49,970 bases of DNA from Sulfuricurvum sp. PD_MW2 (lineage in GTDB: Bacteria > Campylobacterota > Campylobacteria > Campylobacterales > Sulfurimonadaceae). Each line of letters starts with the position of its first letter. The stretch's first letter is position 1. Shown here piece by piece: positions 6,046-46,314 of this stretch. The position numbers and the translations under genes are program-made. The stretch lies in NCBI RefSeq assembly GCF_002633015.1, contig NZ_NSIU01000015.1:1-49970 (forward strand), read 5' to 3'. The notes beneath the pieces are model-generated. The model worked only from the letters and a program-made list of their open reading frames with translations. It made no database searches and had not been told where the DNA came from.

Positions 6046-6346
6046 ATCGCATCTCCTTAAGCATGTAAATGTAAAAATAATTGTCATACTATCAAAAAGT
6101 GATTAAAATGTAATTATTAATTGTTCAATATAAGAGAAATGACAGTATCCGATTTATAAGAAAACATAAAAAAACATACAGTAATCATAGGATAGGTGAA
6201 ATGTGATAAGTATGTAACAATTTGTAATCCGAATAACGAGAATAAGGGGATTTTTACCATCTATTAAGAGTGGCGTATCTATAATGGAAATGGTAATTCC
6301 GTAAATTTACGCACTAGAGTGTGCACATTTAAAAAAAGGAGCACGG
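6046..6346. promoter_or_regulatory. Divergent intergenic region ahead of the molybdoenzyme cluster
   Basis: This roughly 300-bp gene-free stretch separates the reverse repeat-protein/mrp operon from the forward rhodanese-molybdoenzyme cluster and should hold promoters for both. A TATAAT occurs at 6280-6285 without a good -35 box. A perfect 10-base palindrome GTAAATTTAC lies at 6301-6310, just downstream of where transcription would begin, followed by the inverted repeat GCAC/GTGC (6311-6324). These may be an operator. No known regulator site is recognised with confidence. Confidence 0.45.
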
Positions 6347-7468
6347 ATGAACAGATTGCTAAAAACACTATGTGTTGCGGCATCACTGTCGGCGTCAACG
6401 GTTTTGATGGCGGCCGATGGGTATAAGGACAATTCAATCCTTATTTCTGCCGAAGAAGCGGTCAAGCTGATTGGTAATCCAAAAGTGATGTTCGTATCGG
6501 GTGATAACGAAGATATTTATAAACTCGGCCATATCAAAGGATCGGTAGAGATGTATGCTCACCACCTTCACCATTCAGATATTGATGGTGAAATGCATTG
6601 TGCGCCGTTGTACCGTTGTGTTGATGATGCAGAGCAAACGATCGGTAAAAAAGGGATCAGCAATGATATGACAGTTATCGCGTACGATGACTTTAAAGGG
6701 CCGAATGCGACAGGTGTTTACTCATTTTTCGACAGCTACGGTCACAAAAATGTCAAAGTACTCAACGGTGGGCGTGCTGCAATTATGGCAATTGACCCTG
6801 CTCAAAAAGAGTATGATGCATTGAATAAAGATCTTAAAGCGGCAACAAAAGCGCTAAAAGATGCTAAAGAAGCATTGAAAAAAGAGGGTGCGGATAAAGC
6901 AGCTTTGGATGCGACTATTGCAAAAGTACAAGCGGACAGCAAAGCATTGAAAGACAAAATGGTTGAGGTTGAAAAACGTCTTCTTGTTGTCAAAGGGGAT
7001 GAGGAAGTTAAACCAAAAACCTACAAAATCGATCCTAAAAAAATCAAGTACAATGTAATCGCCGGTAAAGATGAAGTCAAGCATGCGATGGAAGACATCC
7101 TCAAAAACGGGAAAAATTCAAAATATGTGATTATCGATTCTCGCGGAATCGGAGAAATTATCGGTGAGCGTAAAATGGATAATGTTGCTCGTGGCGGACA
7201 TGTTCCTGGTGCTACTTTTATCGAGTGGTCACAAATTTCTGATGCAGATAAAAAACTTTCGTTCAAATCTGCAGAGCAAATTCAAGAAGTGTACAACCGT
7301 TATGGGATAACTCCGGATAAAACAATCTATGCATATTGTCACGTAGGTGCCGGACGAAGTTCAGAGCATATTACTGCGCTTCAATTGTTGGGTTACAAAA
7401 ACGTCAAAGTTTTCACAGGAAGCTGGGATGTTTGGGGTAACGATATGAACCTTCCGATTAAACGATAA
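6347..7468 (+). CDS. Periplasmic two-domain rhodanese (sulfurtransferase) with coiled-coil insert
   Basis: A 373-residue exported sulfurtransferase of the tandem-rhodanese type (thiosulfate/3-mercaptopyruvate sulfurtransferase family). It has a signal peptide (1 to about 22, ending VLMAA) and an AAGGAG site before the start. The first rhodanese domain (about 30-145) is inactive, with Asp114-Asp115 where the active loop would be. The second (about 235-370) keeps catalytic Cys331 in the loop CHVGAGRSS, followed by VFTGSWDVWG. Between them lies a highly charged, Lys/Ala-rich segment (about 150-218) that looks like a helical hairpin or coiled coil and is not usual in this family. The molybdoenzyme gene starts 10 bases after the stop, so the product probably handles sulfane sulfur for, or from, that enzyme. 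The substrate is inferred, not shown. Confidence 0.9.
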   Translation: MNRLLKTLCVAASLSASTVLMAADGYKDNSILISAEEAVKLIGNPKVMFVSGDNEDIYKLGHIKGSVEMYAHHLHHSDIDGEMHCAPLYRCVDDAEQTIGKKGISNDMTVIAYDDFKGPNATGVYSFFDSYGHKNVKVLNGGRAAIMAIDPAQKEYDALNKDLKAATKALKDAKEALKKEGADKAALDATIAKVQADSKALKDKMVEVEKRLLVVKGDEEVKPKTYKIDPKKIKYNVIAGKDEVKHAMEDILKNGKNSKYVIIDSRGIGEIIGERKMDNVARGGHVPGATFIEWSQISDADKKLSFKSAEQIQEVYNRYGITPDKTIYAYCHVGAGRSSEHITALQLLGYKNVKVFTGSWDVWGNDMNLPIKR

Positions 7469-7478
7469 GGCTATAATA

Positions 7479-10391
7479 ATGACAAAAGTAATGAACAATC
7501 AACGCCGTAATTTTTTGAAAGTTTCAGGAATGACGGCTGCATTAGTGGCTTCACAAGGTTCACTTTTTGCAAAAACCAATGTAATTTCAGTGGAAAACGG
7601 GAAAAACAACTACCCGAATACCAATTATACTGAAGAGATGTACCGAAACGAGTTCTCATTTGTTTACGGCAAAAAAGAGGAACACGGATTTGCATACCAC
7701 TGTGTAAACTGTCAAGGTAACTGTGCGTGGGAAGTTTGGTCAAACAATGGTGTTGTTACCCGTGAAAACCAATCGGCTCGCTATCCGGTAATCAATGCAA
7801 AAATTCCTGACTTCAACCCGCGCGGATGTAATAAAGGGGTACAACACTCACAAGTGATGTACCAAAAAGATCGTATCCTTTATCCAATGGTACGTGTCGG
7901 TGAACGCGGAGAAGGTAAATGGAAACGTGTCAGCTGGGATGAAGCGGCTGAACGTGTATGTCAAGAGATTTTCAATTGTATGACAGACCCTGAACGCGGG
8001 CCGGATAAATTGATGGTTCATGCGGGAACCGGTCTTTTGACCGAAGGTCGCCGTGGTGCACCGCTTCGTTTCTCGACACAACTCGGTGCGATTCGTATCT
8101 ATCCATCATCATACCTTGGGGATATGTTCTCGGGTGCTGCGATTGCGTACGGTGAGGGTAACGTCGGTTGTACATGGGATTTCATGTATAACGTTGATAC
8201 AGCGGTTATGTGGGGTGGAAATCCATCTGTCTCCCGTATTCCGGATGCTCACTTCGTATGGGAAGGAAAATATAACGGGGCAAAAATCATCGTTATTACT
8301 CCTGAGTTCAATGCAACGGCTAAATCAGCTGACCTTTGGATTCCAATCAAAGCGGGTTCAGACAACATTCTTGCGATGGGTGTTATCAATGTTATTTTGA
8401 ATGAAAAACTTTATAAACCAGAGTTTATGAAAACATTCACCGACCTTCCATTCTTGGTCGATGTAAAAACTCAAAAAATGATTCGCCGCTCCGATATGGA
8501 ACATGCAGCGAATGATGAAGATCATCACAAATACATGGAAGAGTTCTATTGTATGAACAAAGCAACCGGTAAAGTTGCATTGATGCCGGGTTCTGAAGGG
8601 TCTAAAATCAAATCATTGCGTCTTGATGAGCAAGGGATTGAACCACAACTTGAAGGAACATGGACGATTACGGACATGCACGGTAACAAACGTGAAGTGA
8701 CAACCGTATTTGAAATGCTCAAAAAATCGGCAGCAAAATTCAGCCCGGAATCGATTCAGGAAGTGACAGGCGTTCACCCGTCTACTACACGTCAATTGGC
8801 ACGCGATATCGCATTGCCGAAAGTTGTTGAAATCACTACCGGATTCTCATTGAACAAATACTTCAACGGTGTTATGTCTATTTGGAATATTTCATCTATC
8901 TGTGGATTGACAGGGCGTATGGGACCGTATGGCGGATTGAATACTGAAAATGAGTTTACTCTCTCAGGATTGGGTGTTCTTGCAGGATTCAGCGGTAAAT
9001 ATAACGCACGTTTCGGATCTGGATTCGTAGGCGAATTCGTATTCGGTGACGGGATGAAAACATTTGATCAGTATTTTGGGGACGAAGATGTTAAACGTGC
9101 TCAAAACGGTATGAGCAAAAAAGAGTATATGGCAGTACTTTCTGAGATGCTCAAATCGGGTGAAAATGACAAAATCAATCAAGAATCACATCACGGAAAC
9201 GTGAACAAACCATGGTGGCAACCGGATTGTGCTCTGATCGTAGCAGACTCTAAATTCCGTCGTAACAAAGGGAATGAGTACCGTAAAGCATTCTTGTCTA
9301 AAACAAAATTCTTCGGATATGTTGATTACCGTATGTCAGAAGCTGCTCAATACGCAGATGTATTGCTTCCGGCAAAATCGCACTATGAAGTCTATGACTT
9401 ACGTACGTCTCCGGGTTACCACCGTTTTACGAACTTGGCTCAGCCGGTTGCAAACATTAAAAATGTCGGTGAAGCGATGGATGAGTGGTCAATGTTTACA
9501 TTCCTTGCTAAAAAAATGGAAGAGTTGGCAAACCGTCCGGAAAATATTGCAAAAGCAAAAGTACCGGATCATAAAAAATTCGCAAAACCTGGTTTCCATG
9601 ATTTGACGATTTTCCACAAAGAGTTCACCAATACAGATGCTGAATCTGAGGGCGCAGGTGAGAATTATCTTGGAACTGACAAAATGGCAGTACAAGCGGC
9701 ATTGGAAAAATGTGAGCAGTATGAGCCGTGGACGATGGAAAAAATGTACAAAGTGGGAGGATTCTTGCTCATCAATGAAAAAGCGGCGAAGTCTTCACCG
9801 TTGTACTCTGACCGTCCGTACAGCTCGATGGAATTCCATTTGTATAAATTTGAACGTCTTGAGACACTTTCAGGTCGTCAAACATTCTATGTTGACCACG
9901 ATATGTACATCAAAATGGGTGCAGCAACCAATACAGGTATGGAAGGGATCCGTCCTCAGTCTAAAGACTATCCGTACGTATTTATGACACCGCATGCTCG
10001 ATGGTCAATTCACTCGAACTATAAAACATCACGCACATTGCTTCGTTTGCAACGCGGTGTTCCTGCAATTCAAGTAAACCGTGTAGTTGCTGAGTCTAAA
10101 GGAATTAAAGACGGCGATACGATCCGTATTTACAATGCTCTTGGTGAGTTCTATGCAATGGCAAAACTCTCATCTTCAGCACCGGCGGATGGATTGGTGT
10201 TAGAGCATGGATGGGAACCGTACATGTATTTGAAAAACAAAGGGCACAATGAAGTTGTACCGACATCATTGAATCTTCTTGAAATGGCAGACGGATGGGG
10301 TCACCTCAAATTTGGTGGTCTGTGGGATGGTAACCAATACGCATATGACGGCGCGGTTAACTACGAAAAAGCTAAAGACGTACAGTATTAA
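7479..10391 (+). CDS. Type II DMSO-reductase-family molybdopterin oxidoreductase, catalytic subunit
   Basis: A 970-residue periplasmic molybdoenzyme. The N terminus carries a Tat signal (RRNFLKVSG, from residue 9) ending near FA-K32. The [4Fe-4S] site follows the type II pattern His74-x3-Cys78-x3-Cys82-x34-Cys117, the same spacing as in nitrate reductase NarG, and an extra Cys75 sits next to the histidine. Asp215 in LGDMFSG is the likely molybdenum ligand. Length matches ethylbenzene dehydrogenase alpha (about 976) and is near dimethylsulfide dehydrogenase, selenate, chlorate and perchlorate reductases (about 910-930), well below NarG. The C-terminal cofactor-binding domain includes TPHARWSIHSNY. 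It is followed by its Fe-S and haem subunits, and moaC and mobA lie nearby. The substrate is unknown: the flanking rhodanese favours a sulfur compound, the upstream FadL a hydrophobic one. Confidence 0.92.
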   Translation: MTKVMNNQRRNFLKVSGMTAALVASQGSLFAKTNVISVENGKNNYPNTNYTEEMYRNEFSFVYGKKEEHGFAYHCVNCQGNCAWEVWSNNGVVTRENQSARYPVINAKIPDFNPRGCNKGVQHSQVMYQKDRILYPMVRVGERGEGKWKRVSWDEAAERVCQEIFNCMTDPERGPDKLMVHAGTGLLTEGRRGAPLRFSTQLGAIRIYPSSYLGDMFSGAAIAYGEGNVGCTWDFMYNVDTAVMWGGNPSVSRIPDAHFVWEGKYNGAKIIVITPEFNATAKSADLWIPIKAGSDNILAMGVINVILNEKLYKPEFMKTFTDLPFLVDVKTQKMIRRSDMEHAANDEDHHKYMEEFYCMNKATGKVALMPGSEGSKIKSLRLDEQGIEPQLEGTWTITDMHGNKREVTTVFEMLKKSAAKFSPESIQEVTGVHPSTTRQLARDIALPKVVEITTGFSLNKYFNGVMSIWNISSICGLTGRMGPYGGLNTENEFTLSGLGVLAGFSGKYNARFGSGFVGEFVFGDGMKTFDQYFGDEDVKRAQNGMSKKEYMAVLSEMLKSGENDKINQESHHGNVNKPWWQPDCALIVADSKFRRNKGNEYRKAFLSKTKFFGYVDYRMSEAAQYADVLLPAKSHYEVYDLRTSPGYHRFTNLAQPVANIKNVGEAMDEWSMFTFLAKKMEELANRPENIAKAKVPDHKKFAKPGFHDLTIFHKEFTNTDAESEGAGENYLGTDKMAVQAALEKCEQYEPWTMEKMYKVGGFLLINEKAAKSSPLYSDRPYSSMEFHLYKFERLETLSGRQTFYVDHDMYIKMGAATNTGMEGIRPQSKDYPYVFMTPHARWSIHSNYKTSRTLLRLQRGVPAIQVNRVVAESKGIKDGDTIRIYNALGEFYAMAKLSSSAPADGLVLEHGWEPYMYLKNKGHNEVVPTSLNLLEMADGWGHLKFGGLWDGNQYAYDGAVNYEKAKDVQY

Positions 10392-39155: not shown

Positions 39156-40208
39156 TTGTATTACGATTACAATATCGATCATCTTTTGTCGCTTGAGGCA
39201 AAAGGGTTGAGCATTGAGGATGAGGGATACATCAGTGCATTTCGCTCGTTTGAGGGGGAAGTGTATGAAAACTATATCTACGAAAAACTGCTCCGTTATG
39301 CGGCAAATGAACCGCAAATTAAGAGTTTTATCATCAAAGGACCGCACAAACATCGTACCCGTGCACAAAGCGATGCGTTGTCGGTGAGCTGGAAAGGGCA
39401 GATTATCTATCGTGCCCGCCATAAAGAGATTGGAGAGTTTGACGGACTTTTATTTACGGACAAAGAGCTCTATTTCGTCGAGATGACGTTGGTCAAATCG
39501 GTGAGTAATCTCAAAAAACGTCTCCGTAAAAAACGGGCATTGCTCGAAGTTTTATTTCCCCGCTATCAGGTCAAAGCATTGTTGGTGCTCAACGAAGGGG
39601 CAACGGGAACTTCGGATCTCCCTTCATTTGCTTCTGTTTGGATGACAAAACCTTACAGTGCCCGTCACATTTTGGAACGGCTGAGTTCGAAATCGCCACG
39701 CCAACCGATGATCCGTATCGAGAGTTCAAAAATCGCGCATGCCGAAGATCTCAAAATTGCCGCTTTTAAGTATTATGCGACACTCTCATGGATGCTCCGT
39801 TCACTTCGCGGGAAAGATCCGATGGACGTTGATTTTTTCCGCCGACCGGCAACGCAGCGGTATCATGATATTTATACCAAAGTCTATATAGGTTATTTGA
39901 GCGTGGATGATTTTAAAACACTTGCTCCTGATCTCTCATGGGACAATTCGAATGCTTCTCGTGTTGTAGTAGCAATTGAAAAAGATCATTCCGGCGGATA
40001 TTTTCTCACCTATTTTGTCCGTCATGCCTCGAAAAAGCTTGACAACGTTGTGATCGCTTCGACAGGAAGCAAGGTAACAAAAAAAGATCCGTTTGGAATT
40101 ACCCTTACTGAGATGAATCATCTGGACAAAGTAATGGATCAGAGTTTTTATCTCACATTACAACAGCATGAAAAACTTGGACAATTATTAAGCAAGCTCT
40201 CTCATTAA
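39156..40208 (+). CDS. Unknown protein, possibly nuclease-fold, with unclear start
   Basis: At least 350 residues. The N-terminal 150 residues include EFDGLLFTDKELYFVEMTL followed by a basic KKRLRKKRALLEVLFPRYQVKALLVLNEG, an arrangement resembling PD-(D/E)xK nuclease-like folds (Asp, then a strand with Glu, then a basic helix), but the Lys of ExK is a Thr. No known family is claimed. The start is uncertain: TTG at 39156 has no ribosome-binding site, while the frame is open and coding-like back to about 39033. A good AGAGG (39086-39090) sits five bases before an in-frame ATC at 39096, so translation may begin there. It is a stand-alone gene, divergent from the 38383-38988 gene. Confidence 0.65.
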   Translation: MYYDYNIDHLLSLEAKGLSIEDEGYISAFRSFEGEVYENYIYEKLLRYAANEPQIKSFIIKGPHKHRTRAQSDALSVSWKGQIIYRARHKEIGEFDGLLFTDKELYFVEMTLVKSVSNLKKRLRKKRALLEVLFPRYQVKALLVLNEGATGTSDLPSFASVWMTKPYSARHILERLSSKSPRQPMIRIESSKIAHAEDLKIAAFKYYATLSWMLRSLRGKDPMDVDFFRRPATQRYHDIYTKVYIGYLSVDDFKTLAPDLSWDNSNASRVVVAIEKDHSGGYFLTYFVRHASKKLDNVVIASTGSKVTKKDPFGITLTEMNHLDKVMDQSFYLTLQQHEKLGQLLSKLSH

Positions 40209-40276: not shown

Positions 40277-40735
40277 ATGAAAAAAGTGACTGCTGTATTG
40301 TTAATGACGTTAAGTTTATGGGGGGCACCCTATAAAGTAGGACACTCCGTTATGCCGTTGGATCTTAATGATCAGTTTGGCAAACGCTATACGTTAAAAG
40401 TGATGCCGAAAACACTTGTTATGGCCTTTGAAAAAGGGACTGGTGCAACGGTCAATGAGTATTTGAGTACTCAGGAAAAAGGGTATTTGGCGAAGAATAA
40501 AGCTGCGTTTGTTGCCGATATCAGCCAAATGCCGAAATTCATCACCGAAACGTTCGCACTCCCGAAAATGCGCAAATACAATCATACGGTTTTGTTGATC
40601 CAAGATGAAGAGCAGGGGATCAATTTTCCCTATCAGGAAGATAAAATTACCGTGATGAAATTTCGGGGAAATTTTCTGACAAAAGTTGATTTCATCTCAA
40701 CCGCCGATGAGCTGAAAAAAGCGATAGAACAGTGA
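40277..40735 (+). CDS. Exported redoxin-like (thioredoxin-fold) protein
   Basis: A 152-residue protein with a short signal peptide (to about residue 16, LSLWGA). The mature part follows the plan of peroxiredoxin/YtfJ-like domains: VGHSVMPLDLNDQFGKRYTLKVMPKTLVMAFEKG, then ADISQMPKFITETFALPKMRKYNHTVLLI and the terminal DFISTADELKKAI. No CxxC or peroxidatic cysteine is present, so it is probably a binding or structural member rather than an oxidoreductase. It is first in an operon of six overlapping genes. A TAGAAT box at 40253-40258 may be its -10. Confidence 0.7.
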   Translation: MKKVTAVLLMTLSLWGAPYKVGHSVMPLDLNDQFGKRYTLKVMPKTLVMAFEKGTGATVNEYLSTQEKGYLAKNKAAFVADISQMPKFITETFALPKMRKYNHTVLLIQDEEQGINFPYQEDKITVMKFRGNFLTKVDFISTADELKKAIEQ

Positions 40736-41811
40736 TAACACCGATCAAAGCACTTCGAAAAAACAGGTTTAAAACGGCCCTTATTTTTATCAGTATGGCC
40801 GTATCCATTGCCGCGATCTTTCTCATCAGTGCCATATCGGGTGGAGTTGTGAGTATGTACAGCTCCATGCTCAAAACCGACGGAGATATTATCGTCACTC
40901 AAAAAGGGATCGCCGATACGTTTTTCAGTGATATTAACCGTACTGTTACGACTGAGATAGCTCGCATGAACGGTGTTAAAGAGATCAGTGCTTTGATTTT
41001 GGGTGCGGCTCCGGTAGAACCGTTACCTATTGTCGGTATTTACGGTGCCAGCGAGAATCGGTTTAAAAGCTATGCTTTAAAAAAAGGTTCATACCCGAAA
41101 TCGGGCGAAGTGATGCTTGGCTCGAAAATTTATGAGACCCTGAAACACCCTGAAACGATTTCTCTTTCAAAAAGAGAATTCCGTGTCAGTGGAGTCTTTA
41201 AAAGCCATATCGGGTTTGAGGACGGCGGAGTAGTGATGGGATTGGAGGATGCGGGTGAGGTATTTCATAAGAGTGCTTCGATTTTTCTCATTGCATTGAA
41301 GGATCTTGGTAAAAGCGATTCGGTCGTTGCTCAGATCAACAAAGCATACTCCCAGATGGAAGCGAAAACAACCGATGGGTTTATCGATTCGTACAACCAG
41401 TTCAAAATCATTAAAACCAGTTCCGACGTTATCGGAGCGATGGCATTTTTGATGGGAATCTTGGGGATTGTCAGTATGATGAGCATGGTGGTCAACGACC
41501 GCAAAGCCGAATTTGGAATTATGCGTTCTATCGGACTCTCGTCTCGGGTGATTATTTTTAAGTTATTGGGGGAAACGCTCATTATTGCGGTTTTGGCATT
41601 TATATTTGCCTTAGGAGCCTCCGAAGCCGTATTGGAGATGATCAAACATGCCGATAAATTTCAAGGCTACATTAACGGAGAGATTACGGCATTACTGGCA
41701 ATCAAAGTATTCATCATCTCGGTCAGCATGGCGCTTTTCGGTACACTGCTTCCGGCAATCTATGCTGCCCGTATTGATCCTATGAACTTGATCCAACGAG
41801 GTGGTGCATGA
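40732..41811 (+). CDS. FtsX/MacB-type ABC transporter permease
   Basis: A 359-residue inner-membrane protein with GTG start overlapping the redoxin-like stop (GTGA). A membrane segment at about 15-38 is followed by a periplasmic MacB_PCD-type domain (about 45-220) and three C-terminal membrane segments (about 235-260, 278-305 and 325-345), the type VII ABC layout (four helices). The segments GILGIVSMMSMVVNDRKAEFGIMRSIGLSSRVI and LLPAIYAARIDPMNLIQRG are typical. Such systems drive work in the periplasm, such as lipoprotein release or export, rather than simple transport. Its partner ATPase follows. Confidence 0.9.
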   Translation: MITPIKALRKNRFKTALIFISMAVSIAAIFLISAISGGVVSMYSSMLKTDGDIIVTQKGIADTFFSDINRTVTTEIARMNGVKEISALILGAAPVEPLPIVGIYGASENRFKSYALKKGSYPKSGEVMLGSKIYETLKHPETISLSKREFRVSGVFKSHIGFEDGGVVMGLEDAGEVFHKSASIFLIALKDLGKSDSVVAQINKAYSQMEAKTTDGFIDSYNQFKIIKTSSDVIGAMAFLMGILGIVSMMSMVVNDRKAEFGIMRSIGLSSRVIIFKLLGETLIIAVLAFIFALGASEAVLEMIKHADKFQGYINGEITALLAIKVFIISVSMALFGTLLPAIYAARIDPMNLIQRGGA

Positions 41812-42440
41812 GAATCGAAGCACATGGATTGGAACATTTTTACGGCCACGAAAAAGTATTGAATGGGGTCGATATTACGATAAATTCGGGAAGCTTTACC
41901 GCTATTATCGGAGAGAGCGGAAGCGGAAAAACAACATTGCTCTCGATCCTCTCAACGTTGCTGCAACCCACGAAAGGGATGACTCTGTACGATGGAAAAA
42001 CTTTGGGTGAATGGGGAAATATTGATCATTTTCGCCGTGCCAACATAGGATTTGTGTTTCAATTTCATTATCTGATTTCCTATTTGACGCTACGTGAAAA
42101 TATCGCGCTCGGTGCAATCGATGAGGGGCGTATCGAGTTGTTATTGCAATCACTTGGAATCGCTAAACTTTCTCACCGCTACAGTGATGAGGTCTCCGGC
42201 GGAGAGCGTCAGCGCGCAGCGATCGCCAGAGCATTGGTGAACGCTCCTGCTGTGGTATTTGCCGATGAGCCGACGGGGAACCTCGATAGCAAAAACGCGC
42301 TTGGGGTATATGAACTCTTCCGGGAGTTTTCAGGCACAGGGACGGGTTTTGTCGTTGCGTCACACGATAAAAAAATAGTCGATTATGCGGATACAATTAT
42401 TGAAATGGAGGACGGAATTGTTAAACAAATTCATCGATGA
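41808..42440 (+). CDS. LolD/MacB-type ABC transporter ATPase
   Basis: A 210-residue cytoplasmic ATPase. It shows Walker A GESGSGKTT (about residues 36-44), Q-loop FVFQFHYLISYLT, signature VSGGERQR, Walker B VVFADEPTGNLD and the switch histidine in VASHDKK. It overlaps the permease gene by ATGA and the following haem-copper-oxidase-like gene by 23 bases, so all are co-translated. It powers the FtsX-like permease; the substrate is unknown. Confidence 0.93.
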   Translation: MRIEAHGLEHFYGHEKVLNGVDITINSGSFTAIIGESGSGKTTLLSILSTLLQPTKGMTLYDGKTLGEWGNIDHFRRANIGFVFQFHYLISYLTLRENIALGAIDEGRIELLLQSLGIAKLSHRYSDEVSGGERQRAAIARALVNAPAVVFADEPTGNLDSKNALGVYELFREFSGTGTGFVVASHDKKIVDYADTIIEMEDGIVKQIHR

Positions 42441-43965
42441 TGAACTTCCTCTTGCATTGTTTTGGCTGATTCTTGGGCTATTTGCAGGGTTGGTTTATGC
42501 CATGGAGATATTAGGATTGGATGGTTCAATGAGCCTGCTTTCTCCTGAACGTGCACGTTCGCTTCATATTTCGCAGATGTTGTACGGATTTTTCCCACTG
42601 ATGCTCTCTTTGCTACCGTTTGCGCTGTTCCAGAAAGAGGGAGTGCTTTCACAGAATGCGATTGTCCATTTGCGACGTTATTTTGTCGTATGGAATCTTT
42701 TTTTACTTTTTATGAGTATGGCATTGCTGTTCGGCAATATTCGGGGCTTACCGTTTTACGATTTTCCCTATCAGTTGAATTTTCTCCTTGCCTTTAGCGG
42801 AGTCTTTTATCTCTTCGCTCTGCTCGATGCACTGCGCCGTTATGCCAAACGTCCTTTATGGGTAAACGTATCACTTGCGGCGGTGATTGTTGCTCCCCTT
42901 GCGTTGATTGTTTTGATGAATCCTCAGTACGGCCAGGTGGAAAAAACGTTGATCGGACCGCACGGAGACAATACGCTCGGGATGAGTTTTGCCCTTATCC
43001 CGATCTATTATCTGCTGATCAAACTTGTTGCCATAGATGAGTTTAAACCCCGTTGGCATGGGCTATGGATTGTTCCGTTGGTCGGATATATCGTATCCCT
43101 CGTTATCCGTAATTTTTTCCACACTCTAAGTTACACCGAGGAGTGGTTTTTTCAGTATCTCACCCTTTTGTATGTGCCCTTGTTATGGATATGGCTTCGT
43201 GATGCAGGTGTGAGTTTCAAAACCAATCCTTATTTGATTCTTTCCATTATTGCATTTATTTTTGTGGATATAGAGGGAAACTTTCTCTTTATTCCGGATA
43301 TCCGTGCATTAATCCATCGTAACGATCTCGTAGTAGGGCATGCTCATATTGCAATGGGGCTTGGAGTGGCGTTTATGGCTCTTGCCATTGTGCATCATCT
43401 CTTGCCTAACCTTTTTCGACGCATTTATGCCATAGCATGGAGTGTTTTGATGGGAATCATGGCCGTGGCGTTGAGTATAGCGGGTATTTTGGAAGCAAGA
43501 GGATTAAACGAATCCATTGAACCGTTCTTATGGGTTCGTGCATTGGTTGGTGCGATGATCGTTGGTGTCGTGTTGCGGATCACCTTTGATCGGCTAAAGG
43601 TACGAATTGATTCGGCGGTGAAAGTTTATCATTTGAGCGGATTTTTGAGTGATGCGGGAGGCGGAGCTGTACTGATTCTTGGCGGCAGTGCTCTTTTTTC
43701 ATTGCTAGGATTTCATTTTAGCGGTACGTATGAGTACATCGTCTTTGCGTTTATGATCGGAACGGGATTGACGCATTGGTATGGTTTGTATAGTGTGACT
43801 CCATATCGGTTTGCCGAACTCTCTGCATCGATTCGGGCGGTATGTGCCTCAGTTTTTGCTGCCCTTTATATGGCCGGTACATTAGATGGTATCGCATTGT
43901 TGGTTGCCTTGTATGATATTTCATTTGCTCTTTTGTATTGGTTATTTTTGCGGGGTAAAGATTGA
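42418..43965 (+). CDS. Divergent haem-copper oxidase (NorB-like) subunit I
   Basis: About 515 residues with roughly 12-14 membrane segments. TTG at 42418 is the likely start because GGAGG lies six bases ahead; an ATG at 42385 lies further inside the ATPase gene. The best match is to nitric-oxide-reductase-type haem-copper oxidases: RxxH in helix 2 (RSLHISQML, His50, low-spin haem) and H-x7-HxH (HRNDLVVGHAHIAMG, His300/308/310). The active-metal His pair appears as Phe234-His235 followed by EEW, and a candidate first metal His is His182, without the nearby Glu of NorB. So one non-haem metal ligand looks lost. It may be a non-canonical oxidase, NO or haem sensor, or a haem/quinone handling protein. 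No subunit II or cytochrome c subunit is adjacent. Confidence 0.7.
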   Translation: MLNKFIDDELPLALFWLILGLFAGLVYAMEILGLDGSMSLLSPERARSLHISQMLYGFFPLMLSLLPFALFQKEGVLSQNAIVHLRRYFVVWNLFLLFMSMALLFGNIRGLPFYDFPYQLNFLLAFSGVFYLFALLDALRRYAKRPLWVNVSLAAVIVAPLALIVLMNPQYGQVEKTLIGPHGDNTLGMSFALIPIYYLLIKLVAIDEFKPRWHGLWIVPLVGYIVSLVIRNFFHTLSYTEEWFFQYLTLLYVPLLWIWLRDAGVSFKTNPYLILSIIAFIFVDIEGNFLFIPDIRALIHRNDLVVGHAHIAMGLGVAFMALAIVHHLLPNLFRRIYAIAWSVLMGIMAVALSIAGILEARGLNESIEPFLWVRALVGAMIVGVVLRITFDRLKVRIDSAVKVYHLSGFLSDAGGGAVLILGGSALFSLLGFHFSGTYEYIVFAFMIGTGLTHWYGLYSVTPYRFAELSASIRAVCASVFAALYMAGTLDGIALLVALYDISFALLYWLFLRGKD

Positions 43966-44915
43966 ATTTTTTTGTCATTGTTCTTAGCTCACAGCTTTTG
44001 TACTATCTTCTGATCACTCAGACGGGCGTGGTAGGAGCGTTTCATTCCCATATCCATGATCTGTATACCCTTCCTATAGGCGGAATAATCGGAGCATTGC
44101 TCAGTGCATTATTGAGCCATCGCTTTCTTAAATATGAGTTATGTGTTTTGTTTGTGGTTCAAATGATTATTTCATGGATATATCCCGATTATTCGCTTTG
44201 GATGCTGCTTATACTCGGGTTTGTTGTGGGGTACACGACCCCTTTGCTGCTCTATTTGTTTCGGGAGCAGAGTAAGCTTTATCTATCCATCGGATTGGCT
44301 GTTTCATACGTTTTGGGGACTGCGCTGTATACCTATCCTTTTGATGAGAGGGGAAATATTGCGATAGTTCTTCCCTTGATTTCGATGATAGCATTGTGTT
44401 TTGTACGATTTGAATCGACACAAGAGGTCAAAAAAGTTCCGTTTGAATGGACGACATTAGGTGTTATGATGTTGTGGATTTTTGCCGATTCGGCACTGTT
44501 TGAGACGTTAAGCCGATCGGGAAATATGGATATTTGGAGTACATATCCACTGGTGATTATCCTATCTCATTTAGCCGGAGTTTATTTAGCGTATCGTTAC
44601 GGTACGGAGTTGATGAAACAAACACGCATCATTTTGATCCTATTTATTTTCAGTTATATGATGTACGGATTACAAATCCCGTGGATATTAACGGTTATCT
44701 ATCCGGTTGTTATTTCGTACTATAATGTTCTCTTGTTTCAAACATTGATCCGATTGGCGGATATACGTCTTATCGGATTGTCGATGATAGGGGTCGGTTG
44801 GATTGCTACATCTGTCGCCAATGCGGTTGCGTTAGCGCATCAAATTTGGATTGCGGTACTTGTACTGGGGATATTTACCTTGGTCTATCTATTTTATCTT
44901 AGGAGAGTTTCATGA
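43962..44915 (+). CDS. Multipass membrane protein (MFS-like), function unknown
   Basis: A 317-residue protein with about 10 membrane segments, starting with TTG overlapping the previous stop (TTGA). Spacing and length resemble a shortened MFS transporter, but no MFS signature loop is clear. His28 and His30 (FHSHIHD) near the start of the second segment could bind metal or haem. It is translationally coupled to the haem-copper-oxidase-like gene before it and to the YceI gene after it, so it probably belongs to the same function. Confidence 0.6.
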   Translation: MNFFVIVLSSQLLYYLLITQTGVVGAFHSHIHDLYTLPIGGIIGALLSALLSHRFLKYELCVLFVVQMIISWIYPDYSLWMLLILGFVVGYTTPLLLYLFREQSKLYLSIGLAVSYVLGTALYTYPFDERGNIAIVLPLISMIALCFVRFESTQEVKKVPFEWTTLGVMMLWIFADSALFETLSRSGNMDIWSTYPLVIILSHLAGVYLAYRYGTELMKQTRIILILFIFSYMMYGLQIPWILTVIYPVVISYYNVLLFQTLIRLADIRLIGLSMIGVGWIATSVANAVALAHQIWIAVLVLGIFTLVYLFYLRRVS

Positions 44916-45439
44916 TTAGAGTCGGTATAGCGGCATTGTTATTGGTTTCTTCGGTATATGCGGGAAATTTGAGTTTTGAAGCGGGAACAATCAAAGCGCA
45001 TACGGAGGTATTCGGGGATTCGACGATTGATCCTATGACTAAAAAAGCGGCTTCACACCTGAGTATGGACGGCTCTCCTGCATCACTCAAAGGTGCTATT
45101 GAAGTATCGATGAATGATTTATTCAGTGATAACAAAAAACGGGACGAACATATGCAAGAGGCATTGGAATCAGCATCCTTTCCAAAAGCAGTTTTCGATA
45201 TCAAAGAGGTTAGCGCAAAAGGCGGTGATGCGTATACTCTAAAAGGGACGATGAATCTTCACGGTGTGAACAGAACAATCAGTTTTGATGGGACGATTAA
45301 CGAAGAGGGCAATAAAGTCCATATTAAAGCGTCCAGCAGTTTAAAAATGAGCGATTATGGGATCAAGCCGATCAAGATGATGTTTCTTACCGTCCGTGAT
45401 CAGGTTGATTTGAGCGTCGACGTTGTATTGAAACGATAA
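44912..45439 (+). CDS. YceI-family periplasmic isoprenoid-binding protein
   Basis: A 175-residue protein with a signal peptide (to about residue 18, SVYAG). It matches the YceI lipocalin-like beta barrel: GNLSFEAGTIKAHTEVFG at the start, SASFPKAVFDIKEV and YTLKGTMNLHGVNRTISF in the middle, and LKMSDYGIKPIKMMFLTVRDQVDLSVDV at the end. Characterised relatives bind polyisoprenoids or quinone-like chains. It is the last gene of the operon (ATGA overlap with the membrane protein), and its end overlaps the convergent MBL gene by 40 bases. Confidence 0.9.
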   Translation: MIRVGIAALLLVSSVYAGNLSFEAGTIKAHTEVFGDSTIDPMTKKAASHLSMDGSPASLKGAIEVSMNDLFSDNKKRDEHMQEALESASFPKAVFDIKEVSAKGGDAYTLKGTMNLHGVNRTISFDGTINEEGNKVHIKASSSLKMSDYGIKPIKMMFLTVRDQVDLSVDVVLKR

Positions 45440-46314
45440 ATTTCTCCGACGCGGACGATCTGTATCTCAAAGGGATACACTTCTGTATTTTTCAGATGCT
45501 CCAACCATTCGATGGGTTCATCCACAGGCTCATCGGAGAGTTTAAAGGTTCCATAATGAATCGGAATAAATCTTTTTGCTCCCAGATCTGCCGCTGCTTG
45601 TAATGCTTCAGGAGGATTGGTGTGGTTGTGTTTCATTATCGTTTCGGGACGATAGGCGCCGATCGGTAAAAATGCCTCATCGATATCAAAGCGTTCATGT
45701 ATCTCTTTGAAATGTTCCCCATACGCGCTGTCTCCCGAATGATAAAGGGTGTGCTCGCTGTTTTGGATGACATATCCCCCCCACAGCGCTTTGTTCATGT
45801 CAAAATGGATTCGGTTGCTCCAGTGCAGGCTCGGTGTGAAGGTAATAAATAAATCCCCAACCATGACCGATTCCCACCACTCCATCTCAAAACATCGCTC
45901 ACGTGGAATTTTTCCTTTGAGGTAGCGCCAAAAGCCATTCGGTGCGACGATAATCGTTTTTGGATTTTGTTCCAATAAAAATAAGACCGAGGATTTGTCA
46001 TAGTGGTCATAATGGGCATGCGTGATGAGGATAACATCGGCAACGAGATGCTCTTTTGGTACCGGTAGAGGTGAATATCGGCTATGCAGAGGAATATTGC
46101 CCAATACGGGATCAATCGCAACCGTCGTTTCGCCTAAACGAAGCCATAGAGAAGCATGGCCAAGCCAGAGAGCATACGCTCCCTCCGGTAAATGGTCTTG
46201 GTAGAGAATCGGCAAACTAGAGGGTATCGTTTTTTGTGTATGCAATAATTTTGAGACTTGCCATTTTAGAATCGAGGTGAATCGGATTTTCGGGGAAGTA
46301 TAGCGATTTATCAT
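45400..46314 (-). CDS. UlaG/NAPE-PLD-like metallo-beta-lactamase-fold hydrolase
   Basis: A 304-residue cytoplasmic MBL-fold enzyme. The metal motif is THAHYDHYD, with further ligands in HSGDSAYG and FIPIHYGTFKLSDEP. The N-terminal WLGHASLWLRLGETTVAIDPVLG and GAYRPETIMKHNHTNPPEALQAA are typical of the NAPE-PLD/UlaG branch. The substrate is unknown; relatives cleave lactones, phospholipids or nucleotides. It runs convergent with the YceI gene. Confidence 0.85.
   Translation of the reverse strand: MINRYTSPKIRFTSILKWQVSKLLHTQKTIPSSLPILYQDHLPEGAYALWLGHASLWLRLGETTVAIDPVLGNIPLHSRYSPLPVPKEHLVADVILITHAHYDHYDKSSVLFLLEQNPKTIIVAPNGFWRYLKGKIPRERCFEMEWWESVMVGDLFITFTPSLHWSNRIHFDMNKALWGGYVIQNSEHTLYHSGDSAYGEHFKEIHERFDIDEAFLPIGAYRPETIMKHNHTNPPEALQAAADLGAKRFIPIHYGTFKLSDEPVDEPIEWLEHLKNTEVYPFEIQIVRVGEIYRFNTTSTLKST

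Follow-up and report, generated by a model that had tools for sequence, protein, structure and literature searches.

A binuclear haem-metal site is normally the defining feature of the haem-copper-oxidase (HCO) fold. In Sulfuricurvum sp. PD_MW2, a member of the Campylobacterota, a gene for a protein of this kind is embedded among genes for an ABC transporter and a YceI-family lipocalin, within a window of 49,970 nucleotides (the whole stretch of DNA analyzed, contig NZ_NSIU01000015.1). This raises the question of what kind of HCO relative the protein is, and what purpose it may serve in such company. An earlier note on this DNA regarded it as an oxidase relative repurposed for gas sensing, haem handling or quinone chemistry.

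The reading frame and its fold

The gene and its C-terminal extension are located as follows:
42418..43965, + strand: HCO-like protein of 515 amino acids (Pfam COX1, AF2, Foldseek/VIA)
43615..43950, + strand: four extra C-terminal transmembrane helices, with invariant Y404, D412, H453, R473 and D500

The reading frame proved to be real: it starts with a TTG codon at 42418, preceded six bases 5' by GGAGG as a ribosome-binding site, it matches COX1, and its conservation is far above chance. Its 5' end shares 23 nt with the ABC ATPase gene and its 3' end 4 nt with the gene of the multipass protein MP317, in agreement with the description of a gene locked into its operon by overlaps. The match to COX1 (PF00115) scores 35.1 bits, just over the cut-off of 34.8, and the same Pfam family is matched by 17 of 18 diverse homologues. 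In the AF2 model (pLDDT 83, pTM 0.83), residues 1-398 form a 12-TM core with the COX1 fold, while the four extra helices (residues 400-511) lie beyond the range matched by HCO structures. The top Foldseek/VIA matches of the model are all subunit I of HCOs (cbb3, cNOR, qNOR and others; Z 23-25), and HCOs of several classes (cNOR, cbb3, qNOR and A-type) cover residues 1-398 at VIA Z 18-25. By its sequence family and predicted fold, the protein is a member of the HCO superfamily.

Two long open frames in which the ABC and HCO-like genes appear fused (L034 and L051) were dismissed as artefacts of overlapping frames and an N-gap. In another locus, L136 (G468), the HCO-like gene near 6162-7682 (-) is open only with frame changes, and may be a pseudogene or reflect a sequencing error.

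Haem ligands and the metal site

The residues that bear on the haem and metal sites are the following:
42565..42567, + strand: H50, low-spin haem ligand, in RxxH (R47..H50)
43315..43326, + strand: H300 and D303, the CcoN HxxD element ahead of the haem His
43339..43347, + strand: H308 (high-spin haem) and H310 (low-spin haem), in an HAH motif
42961..42972, + strand: H182-G-D184-N185, with Asp184 at the helix-VI CuB/FeB His position
43108..43122, + strand: R231-N-F-F234-H235, the region expected to hold the CuB/FeB HH pair

Conservation was counted among 71 distinct homologues of the HCO-like protein, gathered by genome searches. The haem-ligand patterns that had been read from the letters, RxxH (R47..H50) and H-x7-HxH (H300..H308-H310), are present in the frame, and their haem histidines H50, H308 and H310 are each invariant (71/71), as are H300 and D303. 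H50 aligns with the haem-b His of CcoN, cNOR and gNOR, and the HAH motif with HVH of CcoN and HGH of cNOR. Both b-type haem sites thus appear to be retained, the low-spin one with H50/H310 and the high-spin one with H308, and the occupancy of these sites by haem is predicted from the ligands and the fold. Further invariants of the family are H182, D184, N185, R231, Y239, E242, W243 and H453; for G183, between H182 and D184, invariance was established over a set of 41 sequences.

The second metal site follows another course. Where CcoN and cNOR have their helix-VI CuB/FeB His, the family has Asp184, both by hhalign (probability 97) and in a MAFFT alignment that sets it against CcoN, cNOR, gNOR and A-type proteins of the phylum. 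The counterpart of the HH pair differs by alignment, being F234-H235 according to hhalign versus I230-R231 according to MAFFT, yet HH is absent either way. The Phe-His which the earlier note reported at this pair is correct for F234-H235 in this frame but is not the state of the family: positions 234/235 read FH in 23 of the 71 homologues, IG in 15, RG in 8, VG in 6, LH in 5 and others in the rest, never HH, and H235 is found in only 33. The absence of the NorB Glu stands, as H-x3-E does not occur and G188 lies four residues past D184. Judged from the aligned sequences, the three-His CuB/FeB site is lost throughout the family (71/71, with D184 in 71/71 and HH in 0/71), and because of this loss no usual binuclear reduction of O2 or NO is expected. 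Asp184 and Arg231 may form a pair that stands in for the metal, in a part of the model where confidence is low (segments 172-186 and 301-307 have pLDDT < 50). The family may in this respect serve bioenergetics as a natural "CuB-deleted" HCO.

The loss of the catalytic metal site, together with the many invariant residues outside the haem sites, could also be read as the mark of a structural relic, whereby a haem-less HCO scaffold would serve only to anchor a complex of the ABC, MFS and YceI proteins in the membrane or to assist its assembly. It would then be hard to explain why H50, H308, H310 and the H300/D303 element are invariant in all 71 homologues, across families that are 44-50% identical, and the relic is considered quite improbable.

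The pattern of substitution points the same way as the ligand counts with regard to constraint. Compared with a relative of 83% identity, the HCO-like gene has a dN/dS of about 0.06; it shares the range of 0.05-0.07 with the genes of the small protein, the permease and the ATPase in its operon, and the MP317 and YceI genes reach about 0.17, dS being saturated in all of these comparisons. By this measure the HCO-like gene is under strong purifying selection.

Place among the oxidases and NO reductases

The closest curated model to the HCO-like protein is ccoN (TIGR00780), at 28 bits versus a cut-off of 583, and the sole significant match of the family profile in the PDB is the cbb3 CcoN 6xkw (1.3e-4). 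A tree of 31 sequences gives the family a branch to itself (support 100/100, stem 3.65), distinct from those of CcoN, cNOR and gNOR; the deep joins of long branches in this tree are not to be trusted. The NorB-like character proposed earlier was not borne out, since CcoN is nearer in sequence by TIGR00780, 6xkw and the clade tree. The protein shares with CcoN the fold, the RxxH motif and the HxxD....GHxH element, and CcoN is its best sequence match among the families; it differs in that GHN of helix VI has become GDN, the HH pair is lost, CcoO and CcoP are missing and four C-terminal helices are added. Membership in CcoN was rejected on the bit score, the lack of CcoO/CcoP and of a nearby CxxCH frame, and the separate clade. 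The statement that no partner cytochrome is present also agrees with the window, in which no CxxCH occurs in ORFs of at least 90 aa from 34000 to the right end.

The genome of PD_MW2 contains two COX1 genes in total, a normal CcoN gene and the HCO-like gene. Since a normal CcoN is already present, the HCO-like protein is not the terminal oxidase of the organism. Pipelines that equate COX1 genes with terminal oxidases or NO reductases would miscount them in Campylobacterota.

The likeness to cNOR NorB lies in the haem ligands and the fold (VIA Z 25 to both 3o0r and 4xyd), whereas the three FeB histidines, the NorB Glu and the NorC partner are lacking and the protein falls outside the NorB clade, on which grounds membership was rejected. 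The cNORs of Campylobacterota themselves keep H, HH and E.

A serious candidate was gNOR, an NO reductase of the HCO superfamily in Campylobacterota and Aquificota, in which, as in the family, an Asp stands at the position of the metal-binding His of helix VI. Three gNOR-like genes of the same phylum (L125:3260-4948; L127:2957-4594, minus strand; L132:2814-4496) carry GLDLVADG, with helix VI reading WWGLDLVADG and SHH kept, and each is directly preceded by an ORF of about 200 aa for a partner. The names of the gNOR and cNOR loci were assigned by sequence features and a published table, which lists gNOR with the active-site residue D (PMC8756737), and not by a curated model. In the alignment, D184 and the Asp of gNOR share a helix-VI segment and stand where cNOR and CcoN have their His, with gaps that shift the columns. 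This correspondence raises the alternative of a non-canonical NO or O2 reductase of the gNOR type, in which D184 and the conserved H182, Y239 and E242 would hold a metal. Yet gNORs keep both HH and the upstream partner, while the HCO-like family has HH in none of its 71 members and no such partner; the invariant R231 of this region would disfavour a cation, the family forms a separate clade, and its HMM similarity to gNOR is slight (best E 0.012). Membership in gNOR was set aside on the HH pair, the partner ORF and the clade, and a reductase of this type is improbable.

The HH pair, absent here, is held to be kept in qNOR, eNOR and sNOR as well. None of 18 family members matched NnrS in Pfam at E 1, and no phage relatives of the HCO-like protein were found. 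Plasmid matches at 21-22% identity (Azoarcus, Paracoccus) turned out to be C-type-like HCOs of the canonical kind, in which GHN or AHN and the HH pair are present. Alignment with cNOR and gNOR did not place the protein in a described NOR clade with full ligands; on sequence grounds, the HCO-like family is a distinct and fully supported clade, and is neither cNOR, gNOR nor CcoN. A description of this clade was not found in the literature searched, although the main HCO/NOR classification papers were beyond the reach of that search and an earlier description is possible.

A 423-aa multipass protein (L130:2100-3371, minus strand) is possibly another degenerate HCO relative, as it matches COX1 weakly (20 bits) close to the helix of the haem ligands, and two genomes of the Sulfurimonas group have weak matches to another part of COX1.

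The conserved module and its possible function

The genes around the HCO-like gene in the window are the following:
40277..40735, + strand: small protein TRX152 of 152 aa with an N-terminal signal-like segment, a linked gene of varying position
40732..41811, + strand: FtsX-type permease with a MacB-like periplasmic domain, a Type VII ABC permease (Pfam FtsX and MacB_PCD; PDB LolF and MacB)
41808..42440, + strand: ABC ATPase of the LolD/MacB class
43962..44915, + strand: MP317, a multipass protein of the major-facilitator fold (AF2, VIA)
44912..45439, + strand: YceI-family periplasmic lipocalin (Pfam YceI, 4.2e-21; PDB YceI and polyisoprenoid-binding proteins)
45400..46314, - strand: MBL-fold hydrolase (Lactamase_B_2), a convergent neighbour of the module

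MP317 has no Pfam match, and its AF2 model (pLDDT 90.7) is matched by 12-TM MFS chains at VIA Z 23-25 over about 300 residues. The small protein matched neither a Pfam family nor a PDB chain, which leaves its thioredoxin-like label unconfirmed. Nearly all of about 38 loci in six or more families of Campylobacterota carry a module of FtsX permease, ABC ATPase, HCO-like gene, MP317 and YceI. This order, flanked on one side or the other by the gene of the small secreted protein, is repeated at 44-50% identity in Sulfuricurvum, in Sulfurospirillum and in several more families, so that the operon is indeed conserved. In some f6 loci MP317 and YceI stand ahead of FtsX, and in a few loci MP317 is some genes distant. 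The genomes with an HCO-like gene are precisely those with an MP317 gene, 60 of 397 in Campylobacterota (18 of 68 genera), a count that covers this phylum and does not prove confinement to it. Because the two genes are adjacent and the genomes share ancestry, their co-occurrence is to be read as joint gain and loss and not as independent events.

Some features of individual loci are also worth recording. A 350-aa gene of unassigned function (39156-40208, + strand) lies directly upstream of the module and is kept in several Sulfuricurvum loci; the module of other families showed no such neighbour. In a genome of the Sulfurospirillum group, transposase-like ORFs split the MP317 gene (L031:4757-5616), and the module there may be inactive.

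The idea of a repurposed oxidase relative is well supported by the invariant haem ligands, the lost CuB/FeB site, the purifying selection, the separate clade and the ABC/YceI module. A widespread and selected clade which keeps the haem sites and loses the metal site indicates that the HCO scaffold is usable for another purpose. Among the three roles suggested earlier, the gene neighbourhood suggests that quinone or lipid chemistry fits best.

The ABC pair is of Type VII by its sequence features, namely the FtsX C-terminal domain, the MacB-like periplasmic domain and the LolD-class ATPase. Members of this type (LolD/MacB) work at the periplasmic face, including in the extraction of lipids or lipoproteins. 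Like LolCDE-LolA, MacAB-TolC and YbbAP-TesA, the module joins an FtsX/MacB-type permease and a LolD-class ATPase to membrane or periplasmic partners, but here there is a single permease gene and the partners are the HCO-like, MFS and YceI proteins. The presence of haem-ligand sites within an ABC transporter operon could be taken to mean that the HCO-like protein and the ABC pair receive or export haem across the inner membrane. This is very unlikely, given that the ligands of both HCO haems are conserved and not those of a single transient site, that the ABC partner belongs to the LolD/MacB mechanotransmission class, and that the conserved carrier is a lipid-binding YceI and not a haem chaperone.

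With no CuB beside it, the high-spin haem site is reminiscent of a haem that binds ligands, and a five-coordinate H308 haem that binds O2, NO or CO might gate the FtsX-ABC pair, whose ATPase gene adjoins the HCO-like gene in the loci examined, or signal to a two-component system. Genes for an OmpR-type regulator and a histidine kinase adjoin the module in all eight f9 loci and in part of the f20 loci, yet no such linked genes were noted in most Sulfuricurvum loci. The low-spin haem ligands, which a simple sensor does not need, are invariant too, and the protein has neither a fused sensor domain nor an output. A gas or redox sensor is thus regarded as rather unlikely.

The reading preferred here, tentatively and at somewhat less than an even chance, is that of a CuB-less dihaem membrane electron-transfer protein which would serve the Type VII ABC/YceI system in its action on membrane lipid or menaquinone. 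The ABC pair would extract the lipid or menaquinone from the membrane, the YceI protein would carry it through the periplasm, and the HCO-like protein, as a quinol-reactive transmembrane carrier with two haems, would pass electrons from the quinol pool to keep the extracted molecule, or a lipocalin-bound quinone, reduced. Extraction by a related system has a precedent in YbbAP-TesA, which was proposed to extract hydrophobic compounds for hydrolysis (PMC12646458). In Burkholderia, lipid peroxyl radicals are countered by the YceI lipocalin BcnA together with LcoA, a cytochrome b561 which, as the authors suggest, re-reduces a lipocalin-bound quinone; the cargo of YceI proteins is ubiquinone-8 or octaprenyl lipids (PMC9113575). 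By analogy with LcoA-BcnA, the CuB-less HCO may fill the role of the cytochrome. In both cases a YceI lipocalin is genetically tied to a b-haem membrane protein (the haem being predicted here), but in the module the partner has the HCO fold instead of that of cytochrome b561, and a Type VII ABC pair and an MFS protein are added. Campylobacterota use menaquinones, while the YceI precedents mostly concern ubiquinone or octaprenyl lipids, which counts against this reading, and no quinone site was identified in the HCO-like protein. The combination of HCO-like, MFS, YceI and Type VII ABC proteins appeared in no paper of the literature searched; it would connect redox chemistry in the membrane with extraction by Type VII ABC systems and with YceI lipocalins, whose physiological cargo is uncertain.

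A bolder version would make the HCO scaffold itself a quinol-dependent reductase of lipid peroxides or quinones, with a peroxidase-like D184/R231 pocket over the five-coordinate haem, fed by the ABC pair and cleared by YceI. This is a doubtful proposal with little probability, and if true would be a new enzymatic use of the HCO fold.

In the preferred electron-transfer reading, the linked metal-dependent hydrolase may process the lipid. Against such a role, the hydrolase is not always within the operon and is convergent in the PD_MW2 window. Of 38 loci, 33 have a metal-dependent hydrolase close to the module, of the MBL fold in 13 and calcineurin-like (Metallophos) in 20, never both; the former is linked to the module in several families, and elsewhere the calcineurin-like phosphoesterase is found instead. 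The alternation of two unrelated metallohydrolase folds beside the module may be a case of non-orthologous replacement. On an Azoarcus plasmid (L100:4803-5561), a C-type-like HCO with SCO and cytochrome genes also adjoins a metallophosphoesterase gene, which may be coincidence.
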